Source of the DNA: Phycisphaerales bacterium | Lineage (GTDB): Bacteria; Planctomycetota; Phycisphaerae; Phycisphaerales; SM1A02 | DNA: 64,000 nt | Reading direction: 5' to 3' | Assembly: GCA_014238205.1 (NCBI GenBank) | Contig: JABABM010000012.1 | Span: forward strand, 1-64,000 | Shown here: piece after piece, positions 38,277 to 60,437 of the stretch | How positions within the stretch are numbered: position 1 is the first letter of the stretch | Layout of the letters: every line of letters begins with the position of its first letter | The notes under the pieces: model-generated | What the model saw: the letters and a program-made list of their open reading frames with translations, nothing else | Told to the model about the DNA's origin: nothing | Databases searched by the model: none | Position numbers and translations under genes: made by a program

Positions 38277-38460
38277 CATTAACAGCCCTTGCAACCCATC
38301 ACCCGGCAGCCAGTGAAGTGCTGAGGGGCACGCCAAGCAGGTTTTTGGTTCAACAATCAGGCCCCCTTGGATTCGACCATTGCTTCACCTTGAGGAGCGA
38401 TGTAGGCTGAGAGGTGGAGGCCCTGCACCCCATACATGGGTGATGGGGTTGGAGAAGTTG

Positions 38461-39528: not shown

Positions 39529-39582
39529 CCGCCCCGTTTGAAGGAACTGTCTCAACAATCAACAACAGGATTGGAACCAGGA

Positions 39583-42066
39583 ATGTCCAAAATGATTTCC
39601 CTACCGATTATTGCTCCAGTGGCTCTTGCATCCATGGTGATGGCAGCTGCGGAGGTTGATCCGCAACTGCAGGATCACATGAGACAGGCTCGGCCGGGCG
39701 AAACAGTCCAGGCCCTGCTCTACCTTCACGATCAGCTGGACGTCCTTGGACTTGAAGAACAATTTATCGCCGAGCGTGCGACGCGTGCTCATCGACACCA
39801 GGTCGTCGTCGAGACACTCCAGGCCACGGCGGAGTTCACGCAGGGGGATCTCCTTGCCGATCTCAGGGAGATGCCGGGCGTTGAGTCACACCAGGCATTC
39901 TGGATCGCCAATGTCATCCAGGTGGACGCGTCGGTGCTTGCCCTTGAGCAGTTGTCCCACAGGGACGACATCATGCTCATGTACCTCGATCATCCGATCG
40001 AACTGGTCGAACCGGTTGATCTTGATGGAACAGTGCCCGGTGAGATTGTCCGGGGCGCAGTTCCCGAAGCTGGCGTCGAAGCAGTCCGTGCCCCAGAGTG
40101 CTGGGATGCCGGATTTGACGGGACTGGCGTTCTGGTTGCAAACATCGATACCGGTGTAGATGGTTCACACATCGCGCTTGCAAGCAGGTGGGCGGGCACG
40201 CGTCCGGAATATGCAGGTCATCCTGAGTGGGCCTTCCTGGATCCCTACAACGGAAGCCATGGATCGCCCTATGACTCGGGTTCACACGGAACCCACACGA
40301 TGGGCAGTGTCTGTGGAGGAAGCCCTGGACTGCCAATCGGAGTGGCTCCAGGCGCTCACTGGATGGCTTCCGCTGGAATCGATCAGGGTGGCATTGAGCC
40401 CACTGTTGCAAGTGCCATCCAGGCCTTTGAATGGATGATCGATCCTGACGGTGTACCGTCTACTTCATTCGACGTTCCTTCGGTCTGTTCGAACTCATGG
40501 GGGCTGGTGACGTCTCACGGTTACCCCGAATGTGACCAGACATTCTGGACCTACCTTGATGCGTGTGAACTGGCCGGGACTGTGATTCTCTTCTCGGCAG
40601 GCAACGAGGGTTCAAGTGGTCTTCGTCGTCCAGGTGATCGGGCGACCGATGCATTCAGAACGTGCGCGGTGGCTGCGATCGATCCCTACACTTCCAGTTG
40701 GGATATCGCGAGCTTCTCATCACGTGGTCCGACCTACTGCACGCCAGATGGTAGTGCGGCTGTGAAACCTGATATTGCAGCACCAGGCGTCAACACGTAC
40801 TCATCGGTTCCTGGAAATTCATACTCAAGCTATTCCGGGACATCGATGGCGTCTCCGCACGTCAACGGTGTCGTGGCGATCATGCGACAGGCCAACCCCG
40901 ACCTTCCCGTTGAACAGGTCAAGCAGATCATCTATGACACGGCCGTCGACCTGGGGTCGCCTGGTGAGGACAACGACTATGGACATTGCATGATCGACGC
41001 ATGGGAGGCATTGCAGGTCGCCTTGTCGACCGTGAACCTTTCATTCGACTACCCGGCCGGTCGTCCTGACTACATCGATCCAAGCGGTGGACAGGAAGTT
41101 CCCTTGATCATCTCCGGCCCTGCGACTCCACAGGATGGTTCCGGCCTCCTGCACTACAGCGCAGATGGCGGCCCGTGGATGGAAACGGGCCTTGTCCACA
41201 TCGGCAACGAGGACTACATGGCTGTCTTCCCGGACTTCGATTGCGGAGCAGCGGTCAGCTGGTATCTCTCGATCGAGACCATGGACGGTGAGTACGTCAC
41301 TTCGCCCTACGACGCTCCCAATTCAAGCTGGCTGGGTCATGCATGGTCGGGCCAGGAGGTTGCCTTCGAGGATGATTTCCAGGCAGATACCGGGTGGACG
41401 GTTGGTGGTGATGCGACTGCAGGAATGTGGCAGCGAGTGGAGCCCAACGGCGGCGGAGTTCGATGTGATCCATCAGCCGATGCCGATGGTTCCGGCTCGT
41501 GCTATGTCACGCAGAATGGTGAAGGCGACACGGACATCGATGGTGGCAGCACGATCCTCACGTCACCCATGATGTCAGCTCCCGATGGTGGGACGCTTGC
41601 CTACAAGCGTTGGTACAACAATGGCTTGAATTGCTGTGGGGCAGACGCACAGAATGATGTTCTTGTCGTCGAGTTCACGCTCAATGGCGGTCTGACCTGG
41701 TACGACCTGGAAATTGTCGGTCCGGATGGAGACGAGGTCGACGGAGGCTGGATCTCCGCGGAGTTCCAGCTTGATGCACTTCCGGGCTTCTCGGCAACCG
41801 ACGAGTTCCAGCTTCGGTTCACCGCTTCGGACCTCGGCGAGGGATCGATTGTCGAAGCCGGTGTCGATGCCATCCTGATTGATCGACTCTACTGTGATGA
41901 TGCATCTGTCCCGGGAGATGCAAATGGTGATGGAGAGGTGAATGTCAATGACATTCTTGCGGTCATCGCCATGTGGGGAGCTTCCTGCAGTGACTGCACG
42001 GAAGATCTCAACGGCGACGGCACGGTCGACGTCAACGACCTGCTGCTGGTCATTGCAAACTGGTAA
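39583..42066 (+). CDS. Secreted S8 (subtilisin-type) serine protease with dockerin-like modules
   Basis: An 827-residue protein: a signal peptide, an inhibitor-I9-like propeptide (about 35-135) and a subtilase domain. The triad is D189 (VANIDTGVDGSH), H235 (SGSHGTHTMG) and S421 (SGTSMASPHVNG); the oxyanion Asn is in SAGNEGSS. A beta-sandwich region follows, then two dockerin-like units (ANGDGEVNVNDILAVIAMWG and DLNGDGTVDVNDLLLVIANW) that end the protein. Extracellular endoproteolysis is expected. The ATG at 39583 is favoured over the upstream frame because the signal peptide follows it, though the SD is only moderate. Confidence 0.92.
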   Translation: MSKMISLPIIAPVALASMVMAAAEVDPQLQDHMRQARPGETVQALLYLHDQLDVLGLEEQFIAERATRAHRHQVVVETLQATAEFTQGDLLADLREMPGVESHQAFWIANVIQVDASVLALEQLSHRDDIMLMYLDHPIELVEPVDLDGTVPGEIVRGAVPEAGVEAVRAPECWDAGFDGTGVLVANIDTGVDGSHIALASRWAGTRPEYAGHPEWAFLDPYNGSHGSPYDSGSHGTHTMGSVCGGSPGLPIGVAPGAHWMASAGIDQGGIEPTVASAIQAFEWMIDPDGVPSTSFDVPSVCSNSWGLVTSHGYPECDQTFWTYLDACELAGTVILFSAGNEGSSGLRRPGDRATDAFRTCAVAAIDPYTSSWDIASFSSRGPTYCTPDGSAAVKPDIAAPGVNTYSSVPGNSYSSYSGTSMASPHVNGVVAIMRQANPDLPVEQVKQIIYDTAVDLGSPGEDNDYGHCMIDAWEALQVALSTVNLSFDYPAGRPDYIDPSGGQEVPLIISGPATPQDGSGLLHYSADGGPWMETGLVHIGNEDYMAVFPDFDCGAAVSWYLSIETMDGEYVTSPYDAPNSSWLGHAWSGQEVAFEDDFQADTGWTVGGDATAGMWQRVEPNGGGVRCDPSADADGSGSCYVTQNGEGDTDIDGGSTILTSPMMSAPDGGTLAYKRWYNNGLNCCGADAQNDVLVVEFTLNGGLTWYDLEIVGPDGDEVDGGWISAEFQLDALPGFSATDEFQLRFTASDLGEGSIVEAGVDAILIDRLYCDDASVPGDANGDGEVNVNDILAVIAMWGASCSDCTEDLNGDGTVDVNDLLLVIANW

Positions 42067-44198: not shown

Positions 44199-45686
44199 GT
44201 GTACCGTCTCGCCGTGGCAAAGCCTTCACGGAACATGGATGGCGGACACGGCGGCGGCGGCTCCTCGAGGGTGTTGTCACTGTTCGTGCTGGCCATGATG
44301 AATACGGCCCTCGTCGTCGGACTGGAGGGCTTTCCGACGATGGCCGGTTTCGGCCTCAGCCTTGTCACCTGGTACTTGATATTCGGAGTCATATTCTTCA
44401 TACCTGTCGGGTACGTCGCGGCGGAACTGGGTGTCGGATTTCCTCGCGAGGGAGGAGTCTACGAATGGGTCAGGGAGGCGCTTGGCGTCCGGTGGGCATT
44501 TACTGCAAGCTGGATGCAGTGGATCCAGATCGTGGTGTGGTATCCAAGTGTCCTGGCCGTATGTGCACTTGCGGCAGCCGATATCCTGGCTCCTGAACTT
44601 GGTGAATCAAAGTGGTTCACCGTTCCGATCATCATCATCGTCTTCTGGTGTTCAACACTTCTGAACCTCTTTGGAATACAGCTCAGTGGTCTCATTACCT
44701 CGTTGTGTCTTTGGATAGGGACGTTCGTGCCGACCGTGCTGGCGATCACCTTTGCCGCATGGTGGTTGCTCGACGGCCAGCCATCGCAGATACCGCTTGA
44801 GCCCCGGGAGTTGATTCCAGACTTCTCGAGCATCGGGAAGATCGCCATTGCCATGACGCTCTTTTCATTCCTGTCAGGCCTCGAAGTCAATGGTGTTCAC
44901 TTTCGCAGGGTGAAGCAGCCGACTCGTTCCATTCCCTGGTCGTTGTTCATTTCGGTCATTCTCGTGCTGACCGTATCGATTCTCGGCGCACTTGCCGTAG
45001 GCATCCTGGTGCCGCAGGATGGCGAGTCGATGGCAGCGGGGCCACTTGAGGTCTTCAGGATCTTCCTGAATGAATATGGCCTGGGTGGCTGGCTGCCATT
45101 GCTGGCATTGTGCGTGCTCCTGGGAATGGTGGGACACATGATCGTGTGGATCATCGGGCCGGTTGAAACACTGCGATATGCGGCCAAGGACGGGGTCATT
45201 CCTCCTGCATTCCAGAAGGTCAATGCTGCGCTCGTTCCGAAGAATCTTTTGCTCCTGCAGGCGGTCATCGTGACCGTCATATGCACCATGTACATCTTCA
45301 TCGACATGAACAACGTCTTCTACATCGCGACGGTCGTTTCGGCTCAACTGTATCTCGTGATGTACATTCTCATGTTCATCTCCGCGATCGTCCTCAGGTA
45401 TACGAGGCCGGATGTCGAGCGTCCATTCCGGATCCCGTGGGGCAATGTGGGCATCTGGCTCATTGCCGGAACCGGGGCCTTGGCAGGAACCATCGGCATC
45501 TTCATGCTCTTTGTTCCGCCGGATTCCTCGAATCTTCCGCTCTCCCCGGGATTCTTCATGACCATCGTGGCAGCTTCGTTCATCGTGGCATTCCTGGTCC
45601 CGCACTTCGTCTTTGCCTTGCGAAAGCCGGAGTGGAAGAATGCCCACCTCGAGGACGTGCATCACAAGCCCCCAATGGACTTCTAG
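44199..45686 (+). CDS. APC-family amino acid permease
   Basis: A 495-residue transporter with about 12-13 membrane helices. LSLFVLAMMNTALVVGLEGF, FIPVGYVAAELGVGFPREGG and FSFLSGLEVNGVHFRRVKQP match the amino acid-polyamine-organocation family, closest in pattern to glutamate/GABA antiporters. It imports or exchanges amino acids across the cytoplasmic membrane. The GTG at 44199 is kept as start; the ATG at 44235 is an alternative. It sits 59 bases upstream of a peptidase operon on the same strand, which would suit uptake of released amino acids. Confidence 0.9.
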   Translation: MYRLAVAKPSRNMDGGHGGGGSSRVLSLFVLAMMNTALVVGLEGFPTMAGFGLSLVTWYLIFGVIFFIPVGYVAAELGVGFPREGGVYEWVREALGVRWAFTASWMQWIQIVVWYPSVLAVCALAAADILAPELGESKWFTVPIIIIVFWCSTLLNLFGIQLSGLITSLCLWIGTFVPTVLAITFAAWWLLDGQPSQIPLEPRELIPDFSSIGKIAIAMTLFSFLSGLEVNGVHFRRVKQPTRSIPWSLFISVILVLTVSILGALAVGILVPQDGESMAAGPLEVFRIFLNEYGLGGWLPLLALCVLLGMVGHMIVWIIGPVETLRYAAKDGVIPPAFQKVNAALVPKNLLLLQAVIVTVICTMYIFIDMNNVFYIATVVSAQLYLVMYILMFISAIVLRYTRPDVERPFRIPWGNVGIWLIAGTGALAGTIGIFMLFVPPDSSNLPLSPGFFMTIVAASFIVAFLVPHFVFALRKPEWKNAHLEDVHHKPPMDF

Positions 45687-45745: not shown

Positions 45746-48700
45746 ATGCGATCAGCAACGTTCTTGACTCCACTTCTCGTGTTCTGTGGCTGCCAGTCCC
45801 AGTCACCTACATCTTCACCTTCATCGTCTCCACGTGTTGAAACCGTCGCTGTCTCGGAGCCGGTGTCACGAGGGGCGGAATACCAGCCCAAGGTGGAAAC
45901 AGGTGCAGCGGACTTTCTGGCGGCGCATCCTTCGATGGACGGCCGTGGCATTGTCGTGGCGATCTTTGATACCGGCGTCGACCCCGGAGCGGATGGTCTT
46001 CAGGTAACGAGCGATGGTCGCCCGAAGATCATCGACATTGTCGATGGAACGGGGAGTGGCGATGTCGATACGTCGACGGTTGCCACGGCTGAGGAAGGAA
46101 TCATCACCGGCCTCAGTGGCCGGGCACTCCTGGTTCCCGGTGACTGGAACAATCCTTCGGGTGAGTGGCACATAGGCATCAAGGCTGCCTGGGATCTCTA
46201 TCCAGGCCAGTTGGTTTCGAGAATGAAGCAGGAACGACGGCGTGCGTTCAAGGAGCAGCATCGGGCCATCGAGGCGGATGTGTCGGGCCAGCTTGAGCAG
46301 CACCAGGCTGCGCACGACGAGGAGACCGACGATGAGCGTCGCACCAGGGAGGAACTGGAATCGCAGCTGGAGCTGCTTTCAGAGGGCCTCGATGATCCTG
46401 GTCCGATCTTCGACTGCGTCGTGTTCAACGATGGGGAGCATTGGCGAGCGGTCGTTGACACTGACGAGGACGGGGACCTGGCCGACGAGGCGGTCCTGTC
46501 CAACTACAGGCTCAATCGATCGTATGCGACATTTGGTGAAGACGACCTCCTGAACTTCTGTATCAATATCTATGAGGAGGGCAACCTGCTCTCGATCGTT
46601 GCCGATGCCGGAGCACATGGAACCCATGTAGCAGGAACCGTCGCGGCTCACTTTCCGGGTCAGCCGGAACTTGATGGCATCGCTCCAGGCGCACAGATCG
46701 TCGGGGTGAAGATCGGTGATACTCGACTGGGATCGACCTCCCTTGGAACTGGTGAGGTTCGTGGTCTCATCGCGGTACTTCGAAACAAGTGCGACCTGAT
46801 CAACATGTCCTACGGTGGTTCAACGGGGTTTCCCGACAGTGGCCGTGTGATCGACATGTACAAGGACATCGTCAACGAGCACGGAGTCATCTTCGTCGCC
46901 AGCGCTGGAAATGCAGGTCCGAATCTCACGACGGTGGGGGCGCCTGGCGGCACGACTACCGAGGTGATCGGTGTCGGGGCGGTTCTGACTCCCGCGATGA
47001 TGCACGACCAGTACGCGATCACCGAGCCCTACGACACGCTTCATTACACGTGGTCCAGTCGAGGCCCAACCTCCGACGGTGATCTCGGTGTCGTCATCAG
47101 CGCGCCGGGAGGGGCGATCTCGCCCGTTCCAAATTGGCAGCTGAAGCGTCACGCCCTCATGAACGGCACGTCCATGTCTTCACCGAACCTCTGTGGTTGC
47201 CTCGCGCTGCTCTGCAGCGGCTTGAAGGCCACGGACCAGGAATGGTCTCCGCATTCGATCCGCAGGGCCATCGAGAATACGGCGCAGCCCATTGCCGGGA
47301 TGGATCGTTTCAGCCTCGGTGCAGGGATGATCAACGTTCCGGGTGCCTGGGACTACCTTCGCCTGAATTCCGACCGAGATGATGATGCGGTCCAGTACAG
47401 GGTCACGACCAGTGGTCGTCACGAAGGACGTGGGATCTACCTGCGGGAAACATGGGAAACGGATCGAGAGGACATGGTCCTTGTCAAGGTTTCACCCGAG
47501 TTTCCAAGAGAGGATCCCAAGAGGGATCGGGTCGATTTCGAGCGGAGGATCCGCTTTGAATCCACGGCCGAGTGGATCGATGCACCGGCCAGCATCATGC
47601 TTGTCCATGGCGGCAGAGAGTTCAGGATCGGGGTGGATCCAACCGAACTTGATGCAGGCAGTCATTTCGGTGAAGTACTCGGATTCGATGCAGATGATGC
47701 CTCGTCAGGTCCATTGTTCCGTGTTCCCGTCACCGTGCTGAAGCCAGTCCATCTTGACGCGGACAATGGCTGGAAGCTCTCCGAGCAGCGGCACTACGAG
47801 GCGGGCGATGTGCAGCGATGGTTCCTCGACGTTCCCCATGGGGCGACCTGGATTGACCTGGAGATCAAGCGACTTGTGGACACGGCCTCTAGGCGACTGG
47901 TCGTCCAGGCAACACAGCTGCTGCCTGATCGACCCTACACGGACACGAACCTCCGCAGGTACCTGACGCTTGATGATGATGATCGAGCATTGGTCAGCAT
48001 CCCGGCGGTTGGTGGCCGGGTCATGGAATTGACCATCGCCCAGTACTGGTCAAGCCTCCAGGCGGGGAACTACCAGGTCACCGTCTCCGCCCATGGACTC
48101 GTGCCATCGAGCAGCCTCGTGTCAATGGATGGCAACCGGTTGACGACGCACGTCGATGTGAAGGCCCCCCTTGGGCCCGAGTTGCTTGATCCGTCCGCTG
48201 AACTGACCTTCGTTCGCCGGTGGCTCCAGTCGAAGGATCGCGTTGTTGCGCCACTTGGGAAGGAACGTGACGAGTTGCCGGAGGGACGTCGAATACACGA
48301 GATGGTTCTGGATTACGACTTCGAACTCGATGAGGATGGAAGCATCCGGGTCTGGGAAGCGGATCTTCCGGAGACACGCGACCTCGAGTCGACGATGGTG
48401 CTCATCTACGACGAGTCGATGCAGTTGATGCTGGCAGCCGTCGGGGATGACTGGCATTCGCTCGCCAAGGGCACCTACCTGGCCAGGTACCACGTCCGAC
48501 ACGATGATCGATCTGCGCTGGAGGATCTCGAGGATCTTCCGCTTCGCTTCGATCGGAAGTTGAAGAAGCCGTTGCGTGTTTCGACCCGGTCCCATCCGGC
48601 TGGCGGATCACACGACGACAGGATCCTCCGACACGGTGAATCAGAGGTGGTGCATCTGGTTGCCCCGAGTCCAGCCAAGCAGAATGCTGCAGCCGAGCCC

Positions 48701-49567
48701 GGTGACCTGTTGATTGGAACCATCCATTTCGGCTCGTCTGCTTCAGACACGGTCGGCGCCGGTCGAAATCCAGATGGCTACCCGCTTGAAATGACGGTTG
48801 CCACGAACCCGATCAAGATGAAGAAGCCCTCCAGGGCGGAAGAGGAGGAGGCCGAGGTTCCCACCAGCGAAACTCTTGCCGAGGCCCAGAAAGAGGCCGG
48901 GTTGAAGCACGCACTCGATTTCAACCATGAGACGGAGCGTGGCGAGTTCGAGGCTTTCATCAGGGAGCAGTTGAAGGAGGATGGGGGCGACCTGGATGTT
49001 CTCGAGCTTCAGCTGGATTGGATCACGAATGATGACACGCTCGAGGAAGATGATCATGCCAGGAGTGTCATCAATGCATCCAATGCACTCCTGGATTCCA
49101 TCGATATCTCCTCAGTAGCCGCTTGGCATGGGATGGAGCATGATGAAGATGATCAGGATGCCGCTGACACGGAGCAGGCAGAGAAGATGGCCAGGCAACG
49201 TGACCTGATCATCATGGCATTGCATGCTCGCGTCGAAGCTGAATCCGGACTCATTGATGTCGGCATGGAGCAGTCCCGGGGAGACCGGGAAGCGGCATTC
49301 GAGGAAACCTGGGGCCAGCTTGAGCAGTGGGGGGACCCCTCAACAACGGACGATGGGTACCAGGTGGCCATAGATCGGGAACGTCGAAGAGACAGGTTGG
49401 CGACGGCGATCGGCATGGTCGATGCACGTTTGAAGAAACATCCCCGTGAACAGTCCCTCTATGAACTCCGTCTCGAGTTGCTGGAAGAACTCGGATGGGA
49501 TCATCTTGTTCAATGGCAGCAGCGTGATCTCCTTCGCCGCTTCCCTGGTTCCTACCAGCCATTCTGA
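45746..49567 (+). CDS. Tripeptidyl-peptidase II-like S8 protease, lipoprotein
   Basis: A 1273-residue protein with a lipoprotein signal (TFLTPLLVFCGCQSQ; lipobox FCGC, Cys16). The protease domain has D75 (AIFDTGVDPGADGLQ), H291 (DAGAHGTHVAGTVA), Asn389 and S476 (NGTSMSSPNLCG). The insert of about 215 residues between Asp and His is the hallmark of tripeptidyl-peptidase II, and the total length is close to eukaryotic TPPII. Large beta-rich and helical C-terminal regions follow. TPPII removes tripeptides from peptide N-termini. Placement outside the cytoplasm as a lipoprotein is notable. The ATG at 45746 has AGGAGG 5 bases upstream. Confidence 0.93.
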   Translation: MRSATFLTPLLVFCGCQSQSPTSSPSSSPRVETVAVSEPVSRGAEYQPKVETGAADFLAAHPSMDGRGIVVAIFDTGVDPGADGLQVTSDGRPKIIDIVDGTGSGDVDTSTVATAEEGIITGLSGRALLVPGDWNNPSGEWHIGIKAAWDLYPGQLVSRMKQERRRAFKEQHRAIEADVSGQLEQHQAAHDEETDDERRTREELESQLELLSEGLDDPGPIFDCVVFNDGEHWRAVVDTDEDGDLADEAVLSNYRLNRSYATFGEDDLLNFCINIYEEGNLLSIVADAGAHGTHVAGTVAAHFPGQPELDGIAPGAQIVGVKIGDTRLGSTSLGTGEVRGLIAVLRNKCDLINMSYGGSTGFPDSGRVIDMYKDIVNEHGVIFVASAGNAGPNLTTVGAPGGTTTEVIGVGAVLTPAMMHDQYAITEPYDTLHYTWSSRGPTSDGDLGVVISAPGGAISPVPNWQLKRHALMNGTSMSSPNLCGCLALLCSGLKATDQEWSPHSIRRAIENTAQPIAGMDRFSLGAGMINVPGAWDYLRLNSDRDDDAVQYRVTTSGRHEGRGIYLRETWETDREDMVLVKVSPEFPREDPKRDRVDFERRIRFESTAEWIDAPASIMLVHGGREFRIGVDPTELDAGSHFGEVLGFDADDASSGPLFRVPVTVLKPVHLDADNGWKLSEQRHYEAGDVQRWFLDVPHGATWIDLEIKRLVDTASRRLVVQATQLLPDRPYTDTNLRRYLTLDDDDRALVSIPAVGGRVMELTIAQYWSSLQAGNYQVTVSAHGLVPSSSLVSMDGNRLTTHVDVKAPLGPELLDPSAELTFVRRWLQSKDRVVAPLGKERDELPEGRRIHEMVLDYDFELDEDGSIRVWEADLPETRDLESTMVLIYDESMQLMLAAVGDDWHSLAKGTYLARYHVRHDDRSALEDLEDLPLRFDRKLKKPLRVSTRSHPAGGSHDDRILRHGESEVVHLVAPSPAKQNAAAEPGDLLIGTIHFGSSASDTVGAGRNPDGYPLEMTVATNPIKMKKPSRAEEEEAEVPTSETLAEAQKEAGLKHALDFNHETERGEFEAFIREQLKEDGGDLDVLELQLDWITNDDTLEEDDHARSVINASNALLDSIDISSVAAWHGMEHDEDDQDAADTEQAEKMARQRDLIIMALHARVEAESGLIDVGMEQSRGDREAAFEETWGQLEQWGDPSTTDDGYQVAIDRERRRDRLATAIGMVDARLKKHPREQSLYELRLELLEELGWDHLVQWQQRDLLRRFPGSYQPF

Positions 49568-49570
49568 CCC

Positions 49571-52237
49571 GTGACAGTTCCCCAGGCATTCCTTCTGCTT
49601 CTCACGGTCGTTCCAGGCCTTCTCATGGGCTGCGATGAAGGCGGTCCTGCAGCAGTACACCTGCCCGAGGCCGAGGTGCTCATGGCCCAGTCAAACTGTC
49701 TTGGCTGTCACGAGGCTGAATCTTCCACGGTGGCTCGAATCGGCCTGATGCCAGGGCCTCGACTTGATGCAGTTGGCGGGCGTATGAGCCCCGCATCCAT
49801 GCGTGCCTTCCTCACCGATCCCGGGGAGGCCAAGCCTGGAAGCCCGATGCCATCGATGCTTCATGGGATGCCGTCGGAGGGGCAGGAGGAGTTGATCGAG
49901 TCATTGGTCCACTATCTGCAGTCGCTTGGTGGGCCATTTGTCGCTGACTCCACGAAACACCTGCCGGTCGAGATCGAGCATGGTCGTGTCCTGTATGAAC
50001 AGGTTGGTTGCATCGCCTGCCATGACGCGGGGGGCATGGGGCATCTTGCTTCCAAGACGTCCATCGAGGCGATGTCCACCTTCCTCCAGGACCCGTTGCA
50101 TGTACGCCCCTCCGGTCGAATGCCCGGCATGCAACTCGACGCACGGGAAGCGGTCGCCATTGCAACCTTCCTTCTCAGGGACCAGGTTGAACCCGAGGGC
50201 CTTTCGCCCCGACAGGGCCTGGTCGCGACGATGTACAGGATCGACAAGCCAATCGTCCCGGAGATGCTTCCCGAGCTGGAAGTGGATCATGTCATGGCCG
50301 TGAAGAACATAGGGCTCGATGATCTACCTCATCCGGATGACTTCTTTGCAATCCGTTTCATGGGCATGATTCACATGCCACGTGAAGGAAGGTGGGGTTT
50401 CAGGCTCACTTCCGATGACGGATCGTGGTTGTACATCGATGGCGAGGAGGTAGTCGAACACGGTGGCACGCACTCGAATACGAGCCGGGAGAACTTCGTT
50501 CAACTGGACAAGGGCGCGCATGGGTTCGAACTTCTGTACTTCGAGTACACCTCATACGAGGAACTGTCGATGGAATGGCGCCCTCCGGGGGGGGAGTGGG
50601 GCCCGGTGCCCGATGTCGCCTTCTCTGCTGAACTGGCTACATTCAATCCGCCAGTTGATCCGTCGTTTGTCATTGATGAGAAGATGCGTGTCGAGGGGGA
50701 GAGCATCTTCAGGAAGTTCCACTGCGCTTCCTGTCATGTTCCCGGGGCGCCCTCGCCCGGGCTGCCTCTTGCATCACTTGACCCGGAGCGGGGGTGCCTG
50801 TCTGCCAACGTCAGGCCGGGCCTGCCGTCGTACGGGTTCACGGATGCCCAGCGTGCCATGCTGTCCGACCTTGTTGATGGTGCCACCCTGCTTGCCCAGG
50901 CACCGTCGCCGGGCAGGAGCGTGAACCATGCCATGGAGCGGTTCAACTGTCTTTCCTGCCATGCCAGGGATGGAACTGGGGGCGTCAGCAGCGAACTTGA
51001 CCGGCTCCTTGTTTCGGAAGCGGACCTGGGAGACGAAGGCAGGCTGCCCCCGGACCTGACGGGAGTGGGCAACAAGTTGAATGAGGACTCGATCTGGAAC
51101 GTGCTGCTCGAGGGTGAACGGATTCGACCGTTCATGTCCGTGCGAATGCCGGAGTATGGAGACGTACTCATTGACCTGCCTGGTCATTTTGCTGATGCAG
51201 ATGCACTCGAGGGCGATGAAGTCGAACCAGCCTTCTCCATCGAGATTGCCGCGGTTGGTCAACAACTGGTTGGCGACAAGGGTTTCAAGTGCATCGAGTG
51301 CCATGTCTTTGATGGCCATCCAAGTCTCGGCCAGCCGGGTCCCGACCTTGCAGATACCCATGAGCGTCTGCGTGCCGGATGGTTCACGTCACTCGTGCTT
51401 GATCCACAGGCAGTCAATCCCGGAACGCACATGCCAGCCTTCCTGGCTACAGACCAGCCCGTGTTCCCGGATCTGCTTGAGGGCGACCCTCAGCAGCAGG
51501 CAGATGCGATCTGGTCCTATCTGTCCCTCGGTGCGTCGATGCCATTGCCTTCCGGTGTGGTGGTTGATGCAAGCGAGTACCGACTGGACCCGGTTGACGA
51601 CCCAATTCTCTTCGGGGTGTTCATGGAGGGTGTAAGCCCGAGGACAATTGCGGTGGGATTCCCGGAACGAACCCATGTAGCCTGGGATTCGGAATCGGCC
51701 CGGATGGCGATGGCCTGGCGTGGAGACTTCATGAATGCCCGGGGCACATGGCACCAGCGGGCAGGCGCCCTGGAAAGGCCGGAAGGTGAAGATGTTCTGG
51801 AGCTCCCCCCTGGCCCGGCCATTACCGCCTTGGCTACGAGCATGAGCCCCTGGCCGGAAGCCGGTGGAATCTCGGAGGGTAATCGTCGAGACGAGGATCG
51901 AATTCCGATCTTCATGTCTCGGCAAGGTGACCTGACCATCGAGGAGAGAGCCCGTCCTTACTTGTGGGCCGGCGGAAGCCGTCTTGTGCGTTCGTTCCAG
52001 GTTCGTTCGACGCAGCACATCTCCGGGCTTCGACTCCGTGCTGCCTTGGGCACTCGGATCGATGATGCTGGAGAAGGGCAGTGGCTGGTCGACGACCATG
52101 TACGTATCACCTCACGAAACGTGGAAGGTGCAGTGCGGATTGCAGAGGGATGGCAGGAATTGCTCCTTCCCATCCGAATGCTCAAGAACGATGACGGGAC
52201 CTGGTCTGGTGTAGTTGAAGTGGAGGTGCTCTGGTGA
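49571..52237 (+). CDS. Pentaheme c-type cytochrome lipoprotein with PA14 domain
   Basis: An 888-residue exported protein starting with a lipoprotein signal (LLTVVPGLLMGCDEG; Cys21). Five CxxCH heme sites are seen: CLGCH 43-47, CIACH 147-151, CASCH 385-389, CLSCH 460-464 and CIECH 574-578, several followed by HMP or RMP Met ligands. Between the second and third sites is a PA14 sugar-binding-like domain (about 215-350; GRWGFRLTSDDGSWLYIDG). The C-terminal ~280 residues are unrecognised. The GTG start lies 3 bases after the TPPII stop. It overlaps the next gene by 4 bases. Electron transfer linked to oxidation by the downstream propeller protein is a plausible role. Confidence 0.9.
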   Translation: MTVPQAFLLLLTVVPGLLMGCDEGGPAAVHLPEAEVLMAQSNCLGCHEAESSTVARIGLMPGPRLDAVGGRMSPASMRAFLTDPGEAKPGSPMPSMLHGMPSEGQEELIESLVHYLQSLGGPFVADSTKHLPVEIEHGRVLYEQVGCIACHDAGGMGHLASKTSIEAMSTFLQDPLHVRPSGRMPGMQLDAREAVAIATFLLRDQVEPEGLSPRQGLVATMYRIDKPIVPEMLPELEVDHVMAVKNIGLDDLPHPDDFFAIRFMGMIHMPREGRWGFRLTSDDGSWLYIDGEEVVEHGGTHSNTSRENFVQLDKGAHGFELLYFEYTSYEELSMEWRPPGGEWGPVPDVAFSAELATFNPPVDPSFVIDEKMRVEGESIFRKFHCASCHVPGAPSPGLPLASLDPERGCLSANVRPGLPSYGFTDAQRAMLSDLVDGATLLAQAPSPGRSVNHAMERFNCLSCHARDGTGGVSSELDRLLVSEADLGDEGRLPPDLTGVGNKLNEDSIWNVLLEGERIRPFMSVRMPEYGDVLIDLPGHFADADALEGDEVEPAFSIEIAAVGQQLVGDKGFKCIECHVFDGHPSLGQPGPDLADTHERLRAGWFTSLVLDPQAVNPGTHMPAFLATDQPVFPDLLEGDPQQQADAIWSYLSLGASMPLPSGVVVDASEYRLDPVDDPILFGVFMEGVSPRTIAVGFPERTHVAWDSESARMAMAWRGDFMNARGTWHQRAGALERPEGEDVLELPPGPAITALATSMSPWPEAGGISEGNRRDEDRIPIFMSRQGDLTIEERARPYLWAGGSRLVRSFQVRSTQHISGLRLRAALGTRIDDAGEGQWLVDDHVRITSRNVEGAVRIAEGWQELLLPIRMLKNDDGTWSGVVEVEVLW

Positions 52238-53661
52238 TCGTTCCCCTGTTGGCAGTCATGATTGCGATGGATCCAGGTTGGAGCGTCGGTACCGTCGCGC
52301 AGCCCGATGACGTGGTGCTGGAGGTCGGGGGAATGGTCTCGCTGGGAGACGGCAGCATCATGGTCTGTACACGGCGTGGCGAGTCCTGGGTCATTGAACA
52401 GGCATTCAGTGATGAGCCTGTCTACACCCTCTACGCGGATGGACTCCATGAACCACTGGGCCTGCTGAAGGAGGACGGCTGGATCTATGCGGTCCAGAGG
52501 GGGGAACTGAGCCGGATGCGAGATGTCGATGGCGACAACAGGATCGACCAGATCGAGACGGTCTGTGATGACTGGGAAATCAGTGGAAATTACCACGAGT
52601 ACGCGTTCGGTCCACGCATCGACAAGGAAGGCAACTTCTGGGTCACGCTCAACAAGCCCTTCGGCAACGAGCCATTCGGAAAGGCGAACTGGCGAGGCTG
52701 GGCGGTTCGCATCAGTCCTGAGGGAAAGATGGAAGGAGCCTGCTCCGGCCTGCGTTCACCGGCAGGCATCGAGATTTCTCCAGGTGGAGAGGTCTTCTAT
52801 ACGGACAACCAGGGGGAGTGGTGCGGGGCGAGCAAGTTGGCGCACCTGGAGGTGGGGGATTTCCATGGACATCCCCATGGGATCGACTCAAGTTCACTTG
52901 ATGCGTCCCTTGTCGAGCATCCAGGTGAAGTGCCCGATGGCCTGTTGATGCCAGAAGTCGTCGGCGAGATACCGCATTTCAAGTTGCCTGCAGTGTGGTT
53001 CCCCTACGACAGGATGGGCCGGTCCCCCTCGGGCATGGTGTGGGACACGACGGGGGGTGCGTTTGGCCCCTTTGAAGGGCAGGTCTATGTCGGTGACCAG
53101 TACGCGCCCATCGTGATGCGCGTCGACCTTGAGCAGGTCGAAGGGCATTGGCAGGGGGCATGTTTCCCGTTTCTTGAGGGATTCGATTGCGGCATTACGC
53201 GCCTTTCCTGGGCCGAGGACAATGGATCACCGGTATTGCTCGTGGGTATGACCGACAGGGGCTGGCCATCACTTGGTTCCCGAAGCGACGGCGTCCAGCA
53301 TGTCAGGTTCAATGGCCAGGTGCCCTTCGCAGTCAAGACCATGCGCGCTCGACCAGGTGGGTTTCGCCTGACTTTCACGGAATCGGTTGATTCTGAAACC
53401 GCCCATCCCGATTCCTTCACCATGCGGAGTTTTACATATCGCCTCCACAGTCCATACGGGTCACCCGAGGTTGATGTCGATGAGCCCGTGATCGAGTCGG
53501 TGAAGATCCTCGAAGGAGGGCTGGTGCTCGATATCCAGGTCGAAGGACTCCGTGAAGGCTACGTGCACGAGCTGGAATTCCCCGGCCTTCGAAATGGTGA
53601 TGGGGATGAACTGTCACATGAACGAGCCTGTTACACACTGATTCGAGTGCCTGGGTCATGA
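52234..53661 (+). CDS. Exported six-bladed beta-propeller, sugar dehydrogenase-like
   Basis: A 475-residue protein with a short hydrophobic start (MIVPLLAVMIAMDPGW). DGLHEPLGLLKEDGWIYAVQ, LRSPAGIEISPGGEVFYTDN and FEGQVYVGDQYAPIVMRVDL give a pattern of NHL/SGL or PQQ-sugar-dehydrogenase-like propeller blades, seen in planctomycete membrane-bound dehydrogenase-like proteins. No heme site. A catalytic His cannot be assigned by eye. Its GTGA start/stop overlap with the heme protein and ATGA overlap with the next gene imply coupled translation. A partner dehydrogenase for the pentaheme cytochrome is the natural guess. Confidence 0.8.
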   Translation: MIVPLLAVMIAMDPGWSVGTVAQPDDVVLEVGGMVSLGDGSIMVCTRRGESWVIEQAFSDEPVYTLYADGLHEPLGLLKEDGWIYAVQRGELSRMRDVDGDNRIDQIETVCDDWEISGNYHEYAFGPRIDKEGNFWVTLNKPFGNEPFGKANWRGWAVRISPEGKMEGACSGLRSPAGIEISPGGEVFYTDNQGEWCGASKLAHLEVGDFHGHPHGIDSSSLDASLVEHPGEVPDGLLMPEVVGEIPHFKLPAVWFPYDRMGRSPSGMVWDTTGGAFGPFEGQVYVGDQYAPIVMRVDLEQVEGHWQGACFPFLEGFDCGITRLSWAEDNGSPVLLVGMTDRGWPSLGSRSDGVQHVRFNGQVPFAVKTMRARPGGFRLTFTESVDSETAHPDSFTMRSFTYRLHSPYGSPEVDVDEPVIESVKILEGGLVLDIQVEGLREGYVHELEFPGLRNGDGDELSHERACYTLIRVPGS

Positions 53662-54386
53662 CGATCCGCATTGCAATGTGGTCTGGTCCTCGCAACATAT
53701 CCACGGCAATGATGCGTTCATGGGGGAATCGAACTGATGCCGTGGTTTCGGATGAGCCCTTCTACGCGCATTACCTGTCAGTCACGGGAGCGGATCATCC
53801 AGGACGCGACGAAACCCTCGCATCGCAGGAGACGGATGCTTCGGTGGTTGCGTCGATGCTTCGTGGTCCCGCGCCTGGTGACGCGGCCATCTGGTACCAG
53901 AAGCACATGGCGCACCATCTTCTGCCTGAAACAGACCGCTCGTGGATGGAGTCCGTTCGTCACTGTTTCCTGGTTCGAGATCCAGCGGCCATGCTGGCTT
54001 CTCTTCATGCCAAGACCCCGTTCCCATCTCTTGAGGACACCGGTCTTCCCCAGCAGGTACGTCTATTCGAGGAGGCGATGTCGATGGGGGACGGGATTCC
54101 ACCCGTGCTTGATGCAGATGACGTGCTTGGAAATCCAGAAGGCGTACTTCGCCAGTTGTGCAATCGACTTGGAGTCGAGTTCCAGGAGAACATGCTTTCC
54201 TGGCCCCCGGGACTGCGTGAGAGCGATGGTGCCTGGGCGCCCTTCTGGTATCACTCCGTTGAATCATCCACGGGATTCAGGCCGCCAGTGAACAACTCCG
54301 GGAAACTTCCCCCTGAACTGGGTGAGGTCATGGAGTCCTGTCTGGGATGCTATGAAGCCCTGTACAAGCACCGAATCGGGGAATAG
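53658..54386 (+). CDS. Sulfotransferase-like P-loop protein
   Basis: A 242-residue protein starting TIRIAMWSGPRNISTAMMRS, with the PAPS/phosphosulfate-binding-like loop GPRNISTAM and the later VRHCFLVRDPAAMLASLHAK, which resembles the 3'-phosphate motif of sulfotransferases. Short bacterial proteins of this type often stand next to, or fused with, aminotransferase class IV proteins, as here (5 bases). The substrate is unknown. Its start overlaps the propeller gene by ATGA. It is cytoplasmic, unlike its upstream partners. Confidence 0.8.
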   Translation: MTIRIAMWSGPRNISTAMMRSWGNRTDAVVSDEPFYAHYLSVTGADHPGRDETLASQETDASVVASMLRGPAPGDAAIWYQKHMAHHLLPETDRSWMESVRHCFLVRDPAAMLASLHAKTPFPSLEDTGLPQQVRLFEEAMSMGDGIPPVLDADDVLGNPEGVLRQLCNRLGVEFQENMLSWPPGLRESDGAWAPFWYHSVESSTGFRPPVNNSGKLPPELGEVMESCLGCYEALYKHRIGE

Positions 54387-54391
54387 AAGCC

Positions 54392-55294
54392 ATGCTCCAG
54401 CACTTCGATGAACGCAATGCCGATCTCCTGGTCAACGTCAATGGGGAATTGCTGCATCGTGACGTGGCGGGAATCAGCCCCTTCGATTCCGCCGTCCAGG
54501 GTGGTGATGCCGTCTGGGAAGGTCTTCGCGTGTACCAGGGGCGGATCTTCCGGCTCCAGGAGCATCTTGATCGACTGAGACGATCAGCCGAGGCCCTTTC
54601 ATTTGAAACGATCCCCGAAGATGCGTTCATCATCGATCAACTGCGGCAGACGCTTGAAGCCAATGCCATGCGTGATGGAGTTCATGTGAGGCTGACTCTT
54701 ACACGTGGAGTCAAGATCACCTCGGGGATGGATCCTCGCCTGAACCAGTCCGGGCCCACCTTGATCGTGCTTGCCGAGTACAAGGCGCCCGTCTACGACA
54801 CGAGCGGGCTGACCCTGAACACCAGTTCGCTTCGCCGATTTCCGCCCCACATGCTCAACCAGAACATTCACAGCTGCAACATCCTCCAGTCGATTCTCGC
54901 CAAGATCGAGGCGACCGCCGGTGGGGCGGACGATGCGCTCATGCTCGATGAGCATGGCTTCCTCGCCGAGACGAATGCGACGCATGTCTTCATCGTGAAG
55001 GATGGTGTCGTCATGACCTCGACGACGACCTCCTGCCCGGAGGGTGTGACCCGCGGCGTCGTACTTGAGATCTGTGCAGCCGAGGAGATCCCTCACGAGG
55101 CCCGCGACATCACGCTCGAGGAAGTGCATGGAGCCGACGAAGTCTTCTGCACGGGCACGATGGGCGAACTGGCCGGTGTCACCCGTGTCGACGAACACGT
55201 CATCGGCGATGGCGAGACCGGCGCCATGACGAAGCGACTCTCCGGGATGTACATGGACAGGACCAGCCGCGAGGGTCAGCAGGTCATCGATTGA
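54392..55294 (+). CDS. Class IV aminotransferase-like protein, catalytic Lys apparently replaced
   Basis: A 300-residue protein with the fold of branched-chain/D-amino acid aminotransferases: FDSAVQGGDAVWEGLRVYQG, LFAE-like region, GADDALMLDEHGFLAETNAT and FCTGTMGELAGVTRVD. The segment that normally carries the PLP lysine (I-K-S-x-N in DAAT, K-x-L-N in ADC lyase) reads NQNIHSCNILQSILAK, with His at the Lys position; an alternative alignment could shift it. It converges on xylulokinase, overlapping by 19 bases. Possible roles: a relative with altered cofactor use, or a transaminase using a displaced lysine. Confidence 0.82.
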   Translation: MLQHFDERNADLLVNVNGELLHRDVAGISPFDSAVQGGDAVWEGLRVYQGRIFRLQEHLDRLRRSAEALSFETIPEDAFIIDQLRQTLEANAMRDGVHVRLTLTRGVKITSGMDPRLNQSGPTLIVLAEYKAPVYDTSGLTLNTSSLRRFPPHMLNQNIHSCNILQSILAKIEATAGGADDALMLDEHGFLAETNATHVFIVKDGVVMTSTTTSCPEGVTRGVVLEICAAEEIPHEARDITLEEVHGADEVFCTGTMGELAGVTRVDEHVIGDGETGAMTKRLSGMYMDRTSREGQQVID

Positions 55295-56790
55295 TCAGAG
55301 AGTCGGTGCATGGCAGGCGCCAGTTCTGGATACAGGGTCTTCCAGGTTGAACGGGCCTGCTTGAAGCAGCGTTCTCCCGGTTCGCATGTTCCAGTGACAT
55401 GGACAAGCGTATCCGCAGCAGCCTGGGCATCGGCAACAGTCCCGGCCCCGATGGATGCCAGCATTGCGGCTCCATATGCGGTGGCGTCGGGCTCGTTGAC
55501 CATTTCAACCGTTACCTGAAACACATCGGCGAGCATTTGCATCCATGTCTCGTTTCGCGATGCCCCTCCGGCGACACGTATGGTCTCGGTTGCATGACCT
55601 GCATGACGAAGGAGGTCAAGCATGTCTGCAAGTCCGAACGAGATTCCCTCCAGTACAGCCCTGGTCATGTGGCGTTGGTCATGTCGACTTGCCAGACCGA
55701 TGAAGGCGCCTCGTGCATGTGGATCATTGTGGGGGGTACGCTCGCCATTGAGATAGGGGAGGAAACAGAGTCCCTCCGCGCCGGGGGGGAGATGTGACGC
55801 CTCACTGACAAGCTCATCGAACCCTGCTGCGTCATCATGTCTTCCAACGATATTTCTCCACCACTCCAGGCATCCGCCTGCAGAGAGCATGCAGCCCATC
55901 ACGTGCCAACGATCCCGAGCGGCGTGGCAGAAACCATGCAGGGTGCCTGAGGGGTCTTGGGGGGGAGTATCTGACTGGGCGAATACAACGCCCGAGGTTC
56001 CGATGGTCATGCTGACAAGGCCTTCCCGTGTCACGCCGCAGGCGAGGCCTGCAGCGGCCTGGTCTCCAGCTCCGGCAACAACCGGGATGCCTTCGGGCAG
56101 CCCTGTGGCTGCTGCGCCCAGGGCGTTGATGGCCCCGACGACTTCGCTTGATTCCTGTACGGGCGGCAGCCACGAGGGATTCACCCCTGTTGAGTTGCAC
56201 ATGGTCTCCGACCAGTTCCTGGACGAGAGATCAAGCCATGAGGTGCCTGACGCATCGGTTGCATCCATGACCCGTGTACCTGTGGCCTTGAACAGGACGT
56301 GGTCCTTGGGAAGGCAGATATGGGCGATCCGCGAAGCAATGTCAGGCTCATGCTCCTGTACCCAGAGGAGCTTCGGTGCAGTAAAGCTGGTCAAGACCGG
56401 CTTGCCTGTGATGGAGATGCAGGTCTCCCGCCCGATTTGATCATGGACTTTCTCACATTGGGAGACAGTCCGCTGGTCATTCCAGAGGATGGCAGGCCTG
56501 AGCACGTTTCCATCCTCATCATGAAGCACGAGGCCGTGCATCTGGCCGGCAAAGGCGACAGCCTTGATTGCGAGGGGGTCATCGAGTCTCTCGACGAGGC
56601 GACGGATTGCACTGGACGTGGTATTCCACCAGGTATCCGGGTCCTGCTCGGACCAGCCCGAATGCGGGCTGCTGCTCGACCACGCGCCTTGTTCTCGAGA
56701 CAAGACTGTGCCTGTCGTGGCATCGACAAGCAGGGCGCGGACACCGCCGGTGCCTATATCGACGCCGAGAACATGGACGGGGGAGGTCAC
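55276..56790 (-). CDS. xylB: Xylulokinase (FGGY family carbohydrate kinase)
   Basis: A 504-residue FGGY kinase. [20 protein letters not shown] binds [23 protein letters not shown] and [10 protein letters not shown] are the xylulokinase signature; [14 protein letters not shown] and [20 protein letters not shown] complete the second domain. It phosphorylates xylulose or a related ketose. The GTG at 56790 is chosen because the conserved fold begins about five residues later; the open frame above it is antisense to the divergent isomerase gene. The SD is weak. It faces the isomerase operon across 82 bases. Confidence 0.9.
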
Positions 56791-56872
56791 ATCACCATCA
56801 TCGAGGAGGCAGCGATGCCTGTCGAGTGGGGGGCTGGCCTGTAGGATGCACCCTGAGAAGGAGGCATCCGCC

Positions 56873-57871
56873 ATGCATCGACCAGTTACGCTCTTCACCG
56901 GCCAATGGGCCGACCTGTCCCTCGAGGAAATGGCCGCAATCGGGGCTCGCCTCGGATACGACGGCCTGGAACTTGCCTGCTGGGGAGACCATTTCGACGT
57001 CAGTCTCGCCATGTCTGATGATGGCTACTGCCAGGGCCGTCATGACCTGCTGGCGAAGCATGACCTGAAGTGCTGGTCGATCTCAACGCATCTTGTCGGC
57101 CAGGCGGTCTGTGATCGGATTGATGAACGACATCACCAGATCCTGCCCGACCATGTATGGGGACAAGGTGATGCTGAAGGCGTACGTGAGCGTGCAGCAG
57201 AGGAGATGAAGAACACCGCGCGTGCAGCTGCAAAGCTGGGTGTTCCGGTCGTGAATGGGTTTACGGGCAGTTCCATCTGGCCCGACTGGTATTTCTTTCC
57301 TCCTACGAGTCAAGACCAGGTCAGCAAGGGATTCGATGACTTCGCACATCGATGGGGACCAATACTCGATGTGTTCAGTGAAGTAGGTGTGAAGTTCGCG
57401 CTCGAAGTGCACCCGGCCGAAATCGCCTATGACATCTACAGCACACAGATGGCTCTTGAGGCCATCGGGCACCACGATGCATTCTGTTTCAACTTCGATC
57501 CCAGCCACCTGCTCTGGCAGGGTGTTGACCCGGTCAAGTTCATTGACATGTTCGGAGACCGAATTGTCCATGCGCACATGAAGGACGTGACCGTCAACCA
57601 CGACGGCGTGGCAGGTATTCTTGGATCACATCTTCCATTCGGCGATCACAGGCGAGGGTGGGACTTCAGGAGCGTAGGCCGTGGAGATGTCGATTTCGAC
57701 GGGATCATCCGTGCACTCAATCGCGTGGGATACGAGGGGCCACTTTCCGTTGAATGGGAAGACCCGCACATGCATCGTGAACATGGAGCAATGGAATCGT
57801 GCGAGTACGTTCGATCCATTGCCTTCCGTACATCCAATGTCGCCCACGATGATGCCTTCCAGAAGGCGTAA
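56873..57871 (+). CDS. Sugar phosphate isomerase/epimerase family TIM-barrel protein
   Basis: A 332-residue xylose-isomerase-like TIM barrel. [17 protein letters not shown]-like opening, [53 protein letters not shown] and a late [15 protein letters not shown] give the metal-binding Glu/Asp/His/Glu set. Members isomerise or epimerise sugars, or eliminate on 3-keto-sugars. GGAGG lies 8 bases before the ATG at 56873. It is first of a three-gene operon, 26 bases ahead of the dehydrogenase. Confidence 0.9.
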
Positions 57872-57897
57872 GCGAATGTCCAGGAGGAGTACTTGAC

Positions 57898-59061
57898 GTG
57901 AGCAATGGCGATCGACCACTACGAATGGGGATGGTTGGCGGTGGGCGGGACGCCTTCATCGGCGAAATCCATCGAGCGGCAGCCCGCCTTGATGGCCAGA
58001 TCGACTTCGTGGCAGGGGCACTGTCCTCTTCCCCGGAGAAATCCGTCGAAAGTGGTCGAGATCTTCGCCTGGCAGAAGATCGATGCTATCCGACCTGGGA
58101 AGCCATGTTGGAAGGGGAACTCGCTCGCCCGGAGGGTGATCGGATCGACTTCATCTCGATCGTCACGCCGAACCACGTCCACTACCCCGTTGCGAGGGCC
58201 TTTGTCGATGCGGGTATTCATGTCGTGTGCGACAAGCCGATGACGCTGACCGTGGATGAAGCCGAGGATCTTGCATCGCTCGTCAAGCAACGGGGGGTCG
58301 TTTTCTGCGTGACGTACAACTATTCTGGGTACCCGATGGTTCGGCAGGCCCGGCATCTTGTCCGTGGGGGTGCCATCGGAGATGTTCGCAAGGTGATCGT
58401 CGAGTACAACCAGGGATGGTTGGCAACTGAACTGGAGTCGACTGGACAGAAACAAGCGGATTGGCGGACTGATCCAGCCAGGGCAGGAGCAGGTGGAGCA
58501 ATCGGGGACATCGGATCCCACGCCGAGCAGTTGATCTCCAATGTCACTGGCTTGCACATCGACACCCTCTGCGCCGACCTGAGCAGTTTCATCGAGGGGC
58601 GGCGGCTTGACGATGATGCAAATGTACTGCTTCGTTTCGATGGTGGGGCTCGGGGCATTCTGACTGCTTCGCAGGTCTGCATTGGAAGCCTGAATGACCT
58701 TCGACTCCGGGTCTGGGGCACGACTGGTGGTCTGACCTGGCACCAGGAAGAGCCCAACTCGCTTCGCCTGACGTCCCTCGACGGCCCGGACACGGTGCAT
58801 CACAGGGGGGGGCTGGGCCTCTGCGAGGAGGCAGTCAATGGAACTCGCCTGCCTGGAGGTCACCCGGAAGCCTTCATCGAAGCCTTTGCCAATGTCTACC
58901 TGGGGGCGGTACGGGCCATGCGAGAGGGACGAGATGATGGCGCGGCGTTCTGCTACCCGGATGTCCAGGAAGGTCTCCGAGGCATGCGTTTCATTGATGC
59001 AGTGGTCCGGAGTTCCAAGGAAGATTGCGCCTGGGCGTCGCCTGCGGGGCAGGAAGCATGA
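57898..59061 (+). CDS. Gfo/Idh/MocA family oxidoreductase
   Basis: A 387-residue NAD(P)-dependent dehydrogenase. The Rossmann loop is [17 protein letters not shown], the catalytic-region motif [18 protein letters not shown] carries the conserved Lys of the E-K-P motif (here D-K-P), and [19 protein letters not shown] follows the HxxD-type active site. These enzymes oxidise sugar or inositol hydroxyls, often at C3. The GTG at 57898 has AGGAGG upstream. Its stop overlaps the next gene's start (ATGA). Confidence 0.92.
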
Positions 59062-60437
59062 ACTGGTTGTTCCTGGCATCGATCGTGCTGTGTCAATCTC
59101 CAGCAGAAGTTCCAGGAACTCAGGATGACCAGCCTCGTGTCCTCGTCTTTTCAAAGACGGATGGATTTCGCCATGGCTCGATCGAGCTGGGAGTCAAGGC
59201 CCTGAAGTCCATCGGCGAGACCGAGTTCAGGGTCGATCACACCGAGGATTCCTCGCGTTTCAATGCGGACGATCTTGCCGCGTTTGGCGCCGTGGTCTTC
59301 CTGAACACGACTCAGGATGTGCTCGATGCTGCCCAGCAGCAGGCCTTCATCGATTGGTACCGGGACGGCGGTGGGTACGTGGGAATACATGCTGCAGCAG
59401 ATACCGAGTATGAGTGGCCCTGGTACGGCCAACTCATGGGCGCCTGGTTCAAGAGCCACCCTGCAGTGCAGGAGGCGGACGTGATTGTCGAGGATTCCAC
59501 GCACCCGGCCATGTCACATCTGCCACGGGTCTGGACATGTACGGATGAGTGGTATGACTACACCGCATCGCCTCGTGGTTCCGTGCGGGTGCTGGCCCGT
59601 CTCGATCACGAAACCTACGAGGGCGAGGGGATGGAAGGTGATCACCCGATCATCTGGTGCCATGCATTTGACGGAGGAACGGCGTTCTACACGGGCCGTG
59701 GGCACACGGATGCCAGTTTTGCCGAGCCGGCGTTCCGTACGCACCTGAAGGAGGCCATCCTGTGGGTGCTCGACGATGGGTGGATCGACCTCGTGCCGGA
59801 GCAGGGACTTTCCGGGTGGAGCGGCACGACTGGCTGGGGCAACGTGCACCGAGTCATTCCCAATGAGCAGGACCGGAGAGATTTCCTGTCAGTTGCAGCG
59901 GGTGCTTCGAAGCCTCCGGAGGTGCTCGTCAATCATGGAGAAGGGAACCCGGGCGACCTGGTGTCCGAGATTGAGTTCGGTGACGTTGAGGTCCACGTGG
60001 AGTTCATGGTCCCTGAGGGGAGCAACTCCGGTGTCTACCTGCAGGGTCGTTACGAGATCCAGATCCTCGACAGCCATGGCAAGGGCCATCCCCGGCACGA
60101 TGACTGCGGCGGCATCTACCAGCGATGGGATGACAATCGAGATCCTCGAGGATACGAGGGCCATCCGCCGCGAGAGAATGCAGCCAGGCCACCTTTTCAA
60201 TGGCAGAGTTACGACATCGTCTTCCGGGGGCCTCGGTTCGATACCGACGGGAACAAGATAGGCAATGCACGGTTCGAGAAGGTGATGCACAACGGAATCG
60301 TGGTGCATGAAGACGTCGAGTTGACAGGGCCGACTCGCGGGGGGTTCACGGGTGAAGTTGCCGAGGGTCCACTGAGGCTGCAGGGGGACCATGGTCCCAT
60401 CGCCTACAGGAATGTCAGGGTGCGGCGGATCGACTGA
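59058..60437 (+). CDS. ThuA-like plus DUF1080 (3-keto-disaccharide hydrolase fold) protein
   Basis: A 459-residue protein with a signal-like start ([16 protein letters not shown]). Residues about 35-240 are a ThuA-like/type 1 glutamine amidotransferase fold ([35 protein letters not shown]). Residues about 250-457 are a DUF1080 domain ([35 protein letters not shown]), a concanavalin-like fold now linked to 3-keto-glycoside hydrolysis. The start overlaps the dehydrogenase stop. It probably acts in the periplasm on the same sugar route. Confidence 0.9.

Follow-up and report, generated by a model that had tools for sequence, protein, structure and literature searches.

Three gene units, including a sulfotransferase-like gene paired with a lysine-less aminotransferase relative, in one gene block of a Phycisphaerales bacterium

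Five consecutive plus-strand genes in a Phycisphaerales genome are three units rather than one system. They occupy positions 45746-55294 of the stretch of DNA that we analyzed (the window, 64 kb in length) and comprise a sulfotransferase-like gene (ST) with a class IV aminotransferase relative (AT), a cytochrome-propeller pair (CYT and PROP), and a tripeptidyl-peptidase II-like subtilase (TPPII). We propose that they form a patchwork operon with ST and AT as its conserved core, here with an amino-acid-type antiporter in front. TPPII, and then CYT-PROP, would have been added to this slot, or retained in it, solely in a few close relatives. Taken as a whole, with sulfate activation as the joint task of ST and AT, this explanation has in our judgment an even chance of being right.

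The pairing of ST with AT is seen within the order and well beyond it. When each of the five proteins was used to search one set of 151 genomes from the order, ST and histidine-type AT were found in an identical set of 47 genomes (Fisher p 3e-40, inflated by close kinship among the genomes; Fisher values here ignore genome relatedness and are descriptive only). The two genes are adjacent on one strand in 41 of the 47, where a median of 43 bp separates their matched ends. Using ST alone, we found 80 named genome loci spread over many phyla, with the cultured Dokdonella and Actinoplanes among the carriers; 66 of these loci have a neighboring AT that covers the position of the catalytic lysine. 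Except for locally syntenic Verrucomicrobia genes, no third gene recurs beside the pair across the 80 loci, and the genes that lie between ST and AT have nothing obvious in common. One ST with an upstream asparagine-type AT is on a short contig of an archaeal MAG (Euryarchaeota archaeon UBA169, locus L186) and is either real or mis-binned.

AT (54392..55294, plus strand) matches the whole Aminotran_4 domain (155.6 bits against a cut-off of 28.5; 2e-45), and family models call it a branched-chain or D-amino-acid transaminase. The first-pass annotation, which had named it aminotransferase-like, was right about the family, but the PLP lysine is replaced by His160 (codon 54869..54871, plus strand): in an end-to-end alignment with the true branched-chain aminotransferases (BCATs) 5cm0 and 5mqz, 'NIKSLN' reads 'NIHSCN' in AT. 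The tyrosine at position 164 is lost along with the lysine. Full-length alignment to the fold type IV BCATs 5cm0, 5e25 and 5mqz (E about 1e-54) shows the phosphate and pyridine-nitrogen contacts kept; AT differs from these enzymes in its histidine, in the lost tyrosine and in having a sulfotransferase-like gene partner. Specifically, R46, T220 and T256 are retained in histidine-, asparagine- and lysine-type sequences alike, while E193 is shared by the histidine and lysine types and is Thr in the asparagine type; all four are invariant in the histidine type. From general knowledge of the family, we take the Arg and Thr residues to contact the cofactor phosphate and the Glu to contact the pyridine nitrogen. 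We read AT as a protein in which cofactor binding is probably retained and chemistry probably altered.

His160 is invariant in 31 distinct AT sequences from the order. Across the 66 loci, the position is His in 56, Asn in 10 and Lys in none, and the transaminase labels are probably wrong for the whole ST-linked group. The histidine-type AT mostly lies just downstream of ST and the asparagine type upstream. All 18 true lysine-type sequences retain Lys, as do paralogous true BCATs. In the AT tree, an asparagine clade and a lysine clade (each 100/99) stand apart from the histidine sequences; the AT of locus L161, misaligned at the lysine position in pairwise comparison, is placed in the asparagine clade by the tree. 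The structure 7z79, deposited as 'Aminotransferase, class 4', has Asn at the lysine position and groups with the ST-linked asparagine-type ATs (100/99), in a different clade from the window AT. The entry 9j32 has Lys there, which was probably engineered. A divergent class IV aminotransferase on a long branch (L208, contig 85 of genome G015), first labeled lysine-type, carries His at this position; it is an exception to the pairing, and its genome has no ST match.

ST (53658..54386, plus strand) is a compact P-loop protein, sulfotransferase-like as first labeled (PF19798, Sulfotransfer_5, 5e-55; 186.7 bits against a cut-off of 23.2). Its AlphaFold model (pLDDT 89.7) has Foldseek matches to sulfotransferases, including the curacin and olefin-synthase enzymes, retinol dehydratase and LGS1. 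Elimination-type sulfotransferases match weakly, at a TM of about 0.4-0.5, and tyrosylprotein sulfotransferases score equally. An SGPRNxSTA motif (residues 9-17), R107 and S115 are invariant in alignment A1; we assign these, from general knowledge, as 5' and 3' phosphosulfate-binding motifs. An APS kinase encoded in the genome (240 bits) could supply PAPS.

In our proposal, ST would use PAPS to place a sulfo group on the hydroxyl (or amine) of a small substrate, probably one resembling an amino acid or keto acid. AT would bind PLP or PMP non-covalently, having kept the phosphate Arg/Thr and pyridine-nitrogen Glu and lost the lysine and its partner tyrosine. His160 could then serve as acid/base in an elimination, with sulfate or water as the leaving group, rather than in transamination. 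We suggest elimination because two precedents can be joined. ColD, E1 and SpnQ carry a histidine where the PLP lysine would be, and this residue serves as acid and base during a PMP-dependent dehydration with C-O cleavage (PMC8987622); in CurM, sulfation creates a leaving group (PMC5577590). Like AT, the nucleotide-sugar 3-dehydratases ColD, E1 and SpnQ are aminotransferase relatives with a Lys-to-His exchange, the histidine being catalytic and the cofactor PMP in their case; unlike AT, which belongs to Aminotran_4 and fold type IV, they are of fold type I and act on nucleotide sugars, and the comparison concerns mechanism alone. The CurM and olefin-synthase sulfotransferase domains and retinol dehydratase share the sulfotransferase fold with ST and are among its Foldseek matches, but they are 12-14% identical to it, differ in architecture and have no aminotransferase partner. 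Drawn by analogy across folds, the mechanism (PAPS use, PLP or PMP binding, elimination chemistry and substrate) is tentative. A histidine base would not be general to all ST-linked ATs, since in the asparagine clade Asn stands where His would be and E193 is exchanged for Thr. Somewhat more doubtful still is the broadest form of the idea, in which ST and AT constitute a widespread and undescribed two-enzyme pathway, extending across many bacterial phyla and to one archaeal MAG, where sulfation would prime a substrate for a lysine-less fold type IV PLP/PMP enzyme and AT would be the first case within fold IV to parallel the ColD-type switch from lysine to histidine.

Alternatively, AT could be a cofactor-binding pseudoenzyme. 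With PLP, PMP or an amino acid bound, it would regulate ST or hand substrate to it, and ST would be the sole catalyst of the two. Loss of both the lysine and Tyr164, in two clades with different substitutes (His and Asn), would fit relaxed chemistry with binding kept. Set against this, H160 is invariant across proteins of 59-71% identity from many phyla, and nearby active-site positions rank with the most conserved ones, a pattern more typical of a catalytic residue than of a decayed one. This reading also merits only tentative confidence, and we consider a regulatory pseudoenzyme and the sulfation-elimination mechanism about equally likely.

We think it unlikely that AT still performs transaminase-type chemistry, from PMP or by way of another base, on a compound that ST makes or consumes. 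The cofactor-site residues are retained, an antiporter-like amino-acid gene adjoins the pair in this family, the asparagine-type relative 7z79 was deposited simply as an aminotransferase, and SpnQ is capable of transamination despite lacking the lysine (PMC8987622). However, an enzyme with no lysine to restore its cofactor would not be expected to turn over efficiently, and that lysine is absent from all 66 ST-linked ATs.

Our search of the open literature found no description of the ST-AT pairing; most subscription papers fall outside that scope. The same search, directed at an ST-AT fusion, the function of PF19798, 7z79 and the Arabidopsis loci, found nothing usable. Arabidopsis BCAL, a plant branched-chain aminotransferase-like protein, presumably combines a P-loop or sulfotransferase-like part and a class IV aminotransferase part in one chain. 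If so, other names may already exist for the pair.

The genes around ST and AT are closely packed. All five ORFs lie where the first-pass annotation had placed them, and its spacing of +3, -4, -4 and +5 agrees with the sequence at every junction. TPPII (45746..49567) ends in a stop at 49565-49567, three bases before the GTG start of CYT at 49571; CYT (49571..52237) and PROP (52234..53661) overlap in GTGA at 52234-52237; PROP and ST overlap in ATGA at 53658-53661; and the ST stop at 54384-54386 is followed after five bases by the AT start, an ATG at 54392. A GadC-like permease of the APC amino acid antiporter type (44199..45686, plus strand; Pfam AA_permease_2 1.9e-59) ends 59 bp before TPPII, as had been noted, and AGGAGG lies upstream of the TPPII ATG. 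Because it directly precedes ST-AT in two relatives (G084 and G147), we count the permease as the first gene of the same conserved block. It scores 381.8 bits against the GadC equivalog, below the cut-off of 640. A promoter and terminator scan gave no signal above chance and no internal plus-strand promoter-like site. The compact block is probably co-transcribed. A xylulokinase gene on the opposite strand overlaps the end of AT. This ORF (55276-57012, minus strand) is over-extended, with FGGY beginning at residue 81 and the ORF running into the gene that begins at 56936; its true start is probably near 56770. Upstream, a second subtilase with a dockerin-like C-terminal stretch is encoded at 39538-42066, and the protein at 38380-39528, which has no Pfam match, shares that C-terminal stretch.

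Three arrangements of the block were found in relatives, where gene calls in GC-rich DNA with antisense ORFs were based on codon scores. The flanks are conserved, with a molybdopterin-domain gene, sufE and an FMN reductase to the left and xylulokinase and/or a TIM barrel to the right. Between them, G084 and G147 have permease-ST-AT, in a slot that holds no TPPII, CYT or PROP; G117 has permease-TPPII-ST-AT; and the window genome (G000), G075 and G268 have permease-TPPII-CYT-PROP-ST-AT, the G268 block being on two contigs with both ends inside PROP. Recurrence of the six-gene order in two further genomes (G075, and G268 on its two contigs) shows that the arrangement is non-random. In G075, G117 and G268 the permease is immediately 5' of TPPII. 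Because G117 shares a genus with G075 and G268, separate gains are no more likely than a loss of CYT-PROP from G117. In two incomplete genomes from the same genus as the window, searches gave no TPPII, ST or CYT ortholog, an absence that is uninformative at 65-70% completeness.

This pattern bears on the proposal, made in the first-pass annotation, that the permease and the five genes form a single integrated system for peptide use and oxidation. The start/stop overlaps and the order shared by G000, G075 and G268 speak for it, and the description of a compact block, repeated in the same order in two relatives, stands. The single five-part system is not supported. The three modules occur independently: among the 151 genomes, 13 have both ST and CYT where 9.6 are expected (p 0.11), 21 have both ST and PROP where 18.7 are expected, neither of which is an association, and TPPII is present in only four. 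Scattering of the proteins among relatives, which the first-pass annotation had itself named as a refutation, is largely what is seen. The slot exists without TPPII, CYT and PROP in G084 and G147, and G117 has permease, TPPII, ST and AT with no CYT ortholog anywhere in its genome. The peptide-use route had counted on an aminotransferase, and the catalytic lysine is absent from every ST-linked AT. We regard the integrated system as very improbable. Least credible of all is mere stacking, in which genome streamlining would by chance have put genes under a shared promoter and ST and AT would have no joint function; the genome is small and compact, the pair has no third partner, and ST and AT are far apart in five genomes, but their co-occurrence in 47 of 47 genomes holds even where they are unlinked.

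TPPII, the rarest of the three units in the order, carries S8 and TPPII-specific domains, with four Pfam models above cut-off (Peptidase_S8, TPPII, TPPII_Ig-like-1 and TPPII_GBD). Its translation reads IFDTGVD, AHGTHVAG and GTSMSSP, and the Asp/His/Ser catalytic triad is present. Two lipoproteins had been noted in the block: CYT has the lipobox LMGC, and TPPII is a predicted lipoprotein with LAGC or LTGC in its relatives, but the TPPII lipobox in the window is an atypical FCGC. Of 181 genomes in the family, 5 have TPPII, and elsewhere in the phylum it occurs in 21 of 294 genomes. At 19 of these latter loci, no ST, AT, CYT or PROP was found within 1.5 kb flanks.

The heme protein and propeller had been described as an oxidation module, and the pair is kept elsewhere: CYT is found in 31 of the 151 genomes, 29 of which also have PROP, and PROP adjoins CYT in relatives. 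CYT is a pentaheme c-type cytochrome lipoprotein with a PA14 domain (Pfam Cytochrom_C and PA14) and CxxCH motifs at residues 43, 147, 385, 460 and 574 (alignment A3). It passes the SoxX equivalog TIGR04485 (78 bits, cut-off 61). We rejected this identity, as the model matches a single heme segment of what is a pentaheme/PA14 protein; such a match is likely a source of wrong automatic annotation. PROP is a stand-alone exported propeller with a weak Pfam match (DUF7133/SGL propeller) and no CxxCH; it scores 18.7 bits against TIGR02604, the PVC-type heme-binding CxxCH protein, where the cut-off is 122.2. The top Foldseek matches of its AlphaFold model (pLDDT 88.5) are PQQ sugar dehydrogenases (TMt 0.71-0.74), which indicates an sGDH-type propeller. 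The PQQ-dependent enzymes 3a9g, 2ism and 3das share this fold (TMt 0.69-0.74) at 15-18% identity, and PROP is longer, with an extra C-terminal region. H121, R174 and Q193, candidate PQQ-binding residues, are invariant across aligned PROP relatives. As a search of the genome for PqqE gave no match over the cut-off, PROP would have to obtain PQQ from outside or use a different cofactor. A second, longer PROP paralog of 873 aa lies on contig 44 of the same genome (L090), with no CYT neighbor.

We suggest that the quinoprotein-type, sugar-dehydrogenase-like propeller hands electrons to a carbohydrate-binding pentaheme lipoprotein. CYT adjoins a ThuA/3-keto-disaccharide hydrolase gene in 3 of 9 loci (L073, L079 and L080). 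The same type of gene lies 3' of the window block, after a TIM-barrel isomerase-like gene and a GFO/IDH/MocA oxidoreductase, in a 3-keto-sugar-type cluster (56936-60437). At L080, in G095, such a trio (TIM-barrel, GFO/IDH/MocA, ThuA with 3-keto-disaccharide hydrolase) leads straight into CYT-PROP. A role in periplasmic sugar oxidation suits the CYT-PROP pair better than one in peptide use.

The idea of a five-part system thus gives way to a testable claim, that a sulfotransferase-like gene pairs with a lysine-less aminotransferase relative. If the sulfate-elimination idea is true, the pair would represent a new use for PLP/PMP chemistry.
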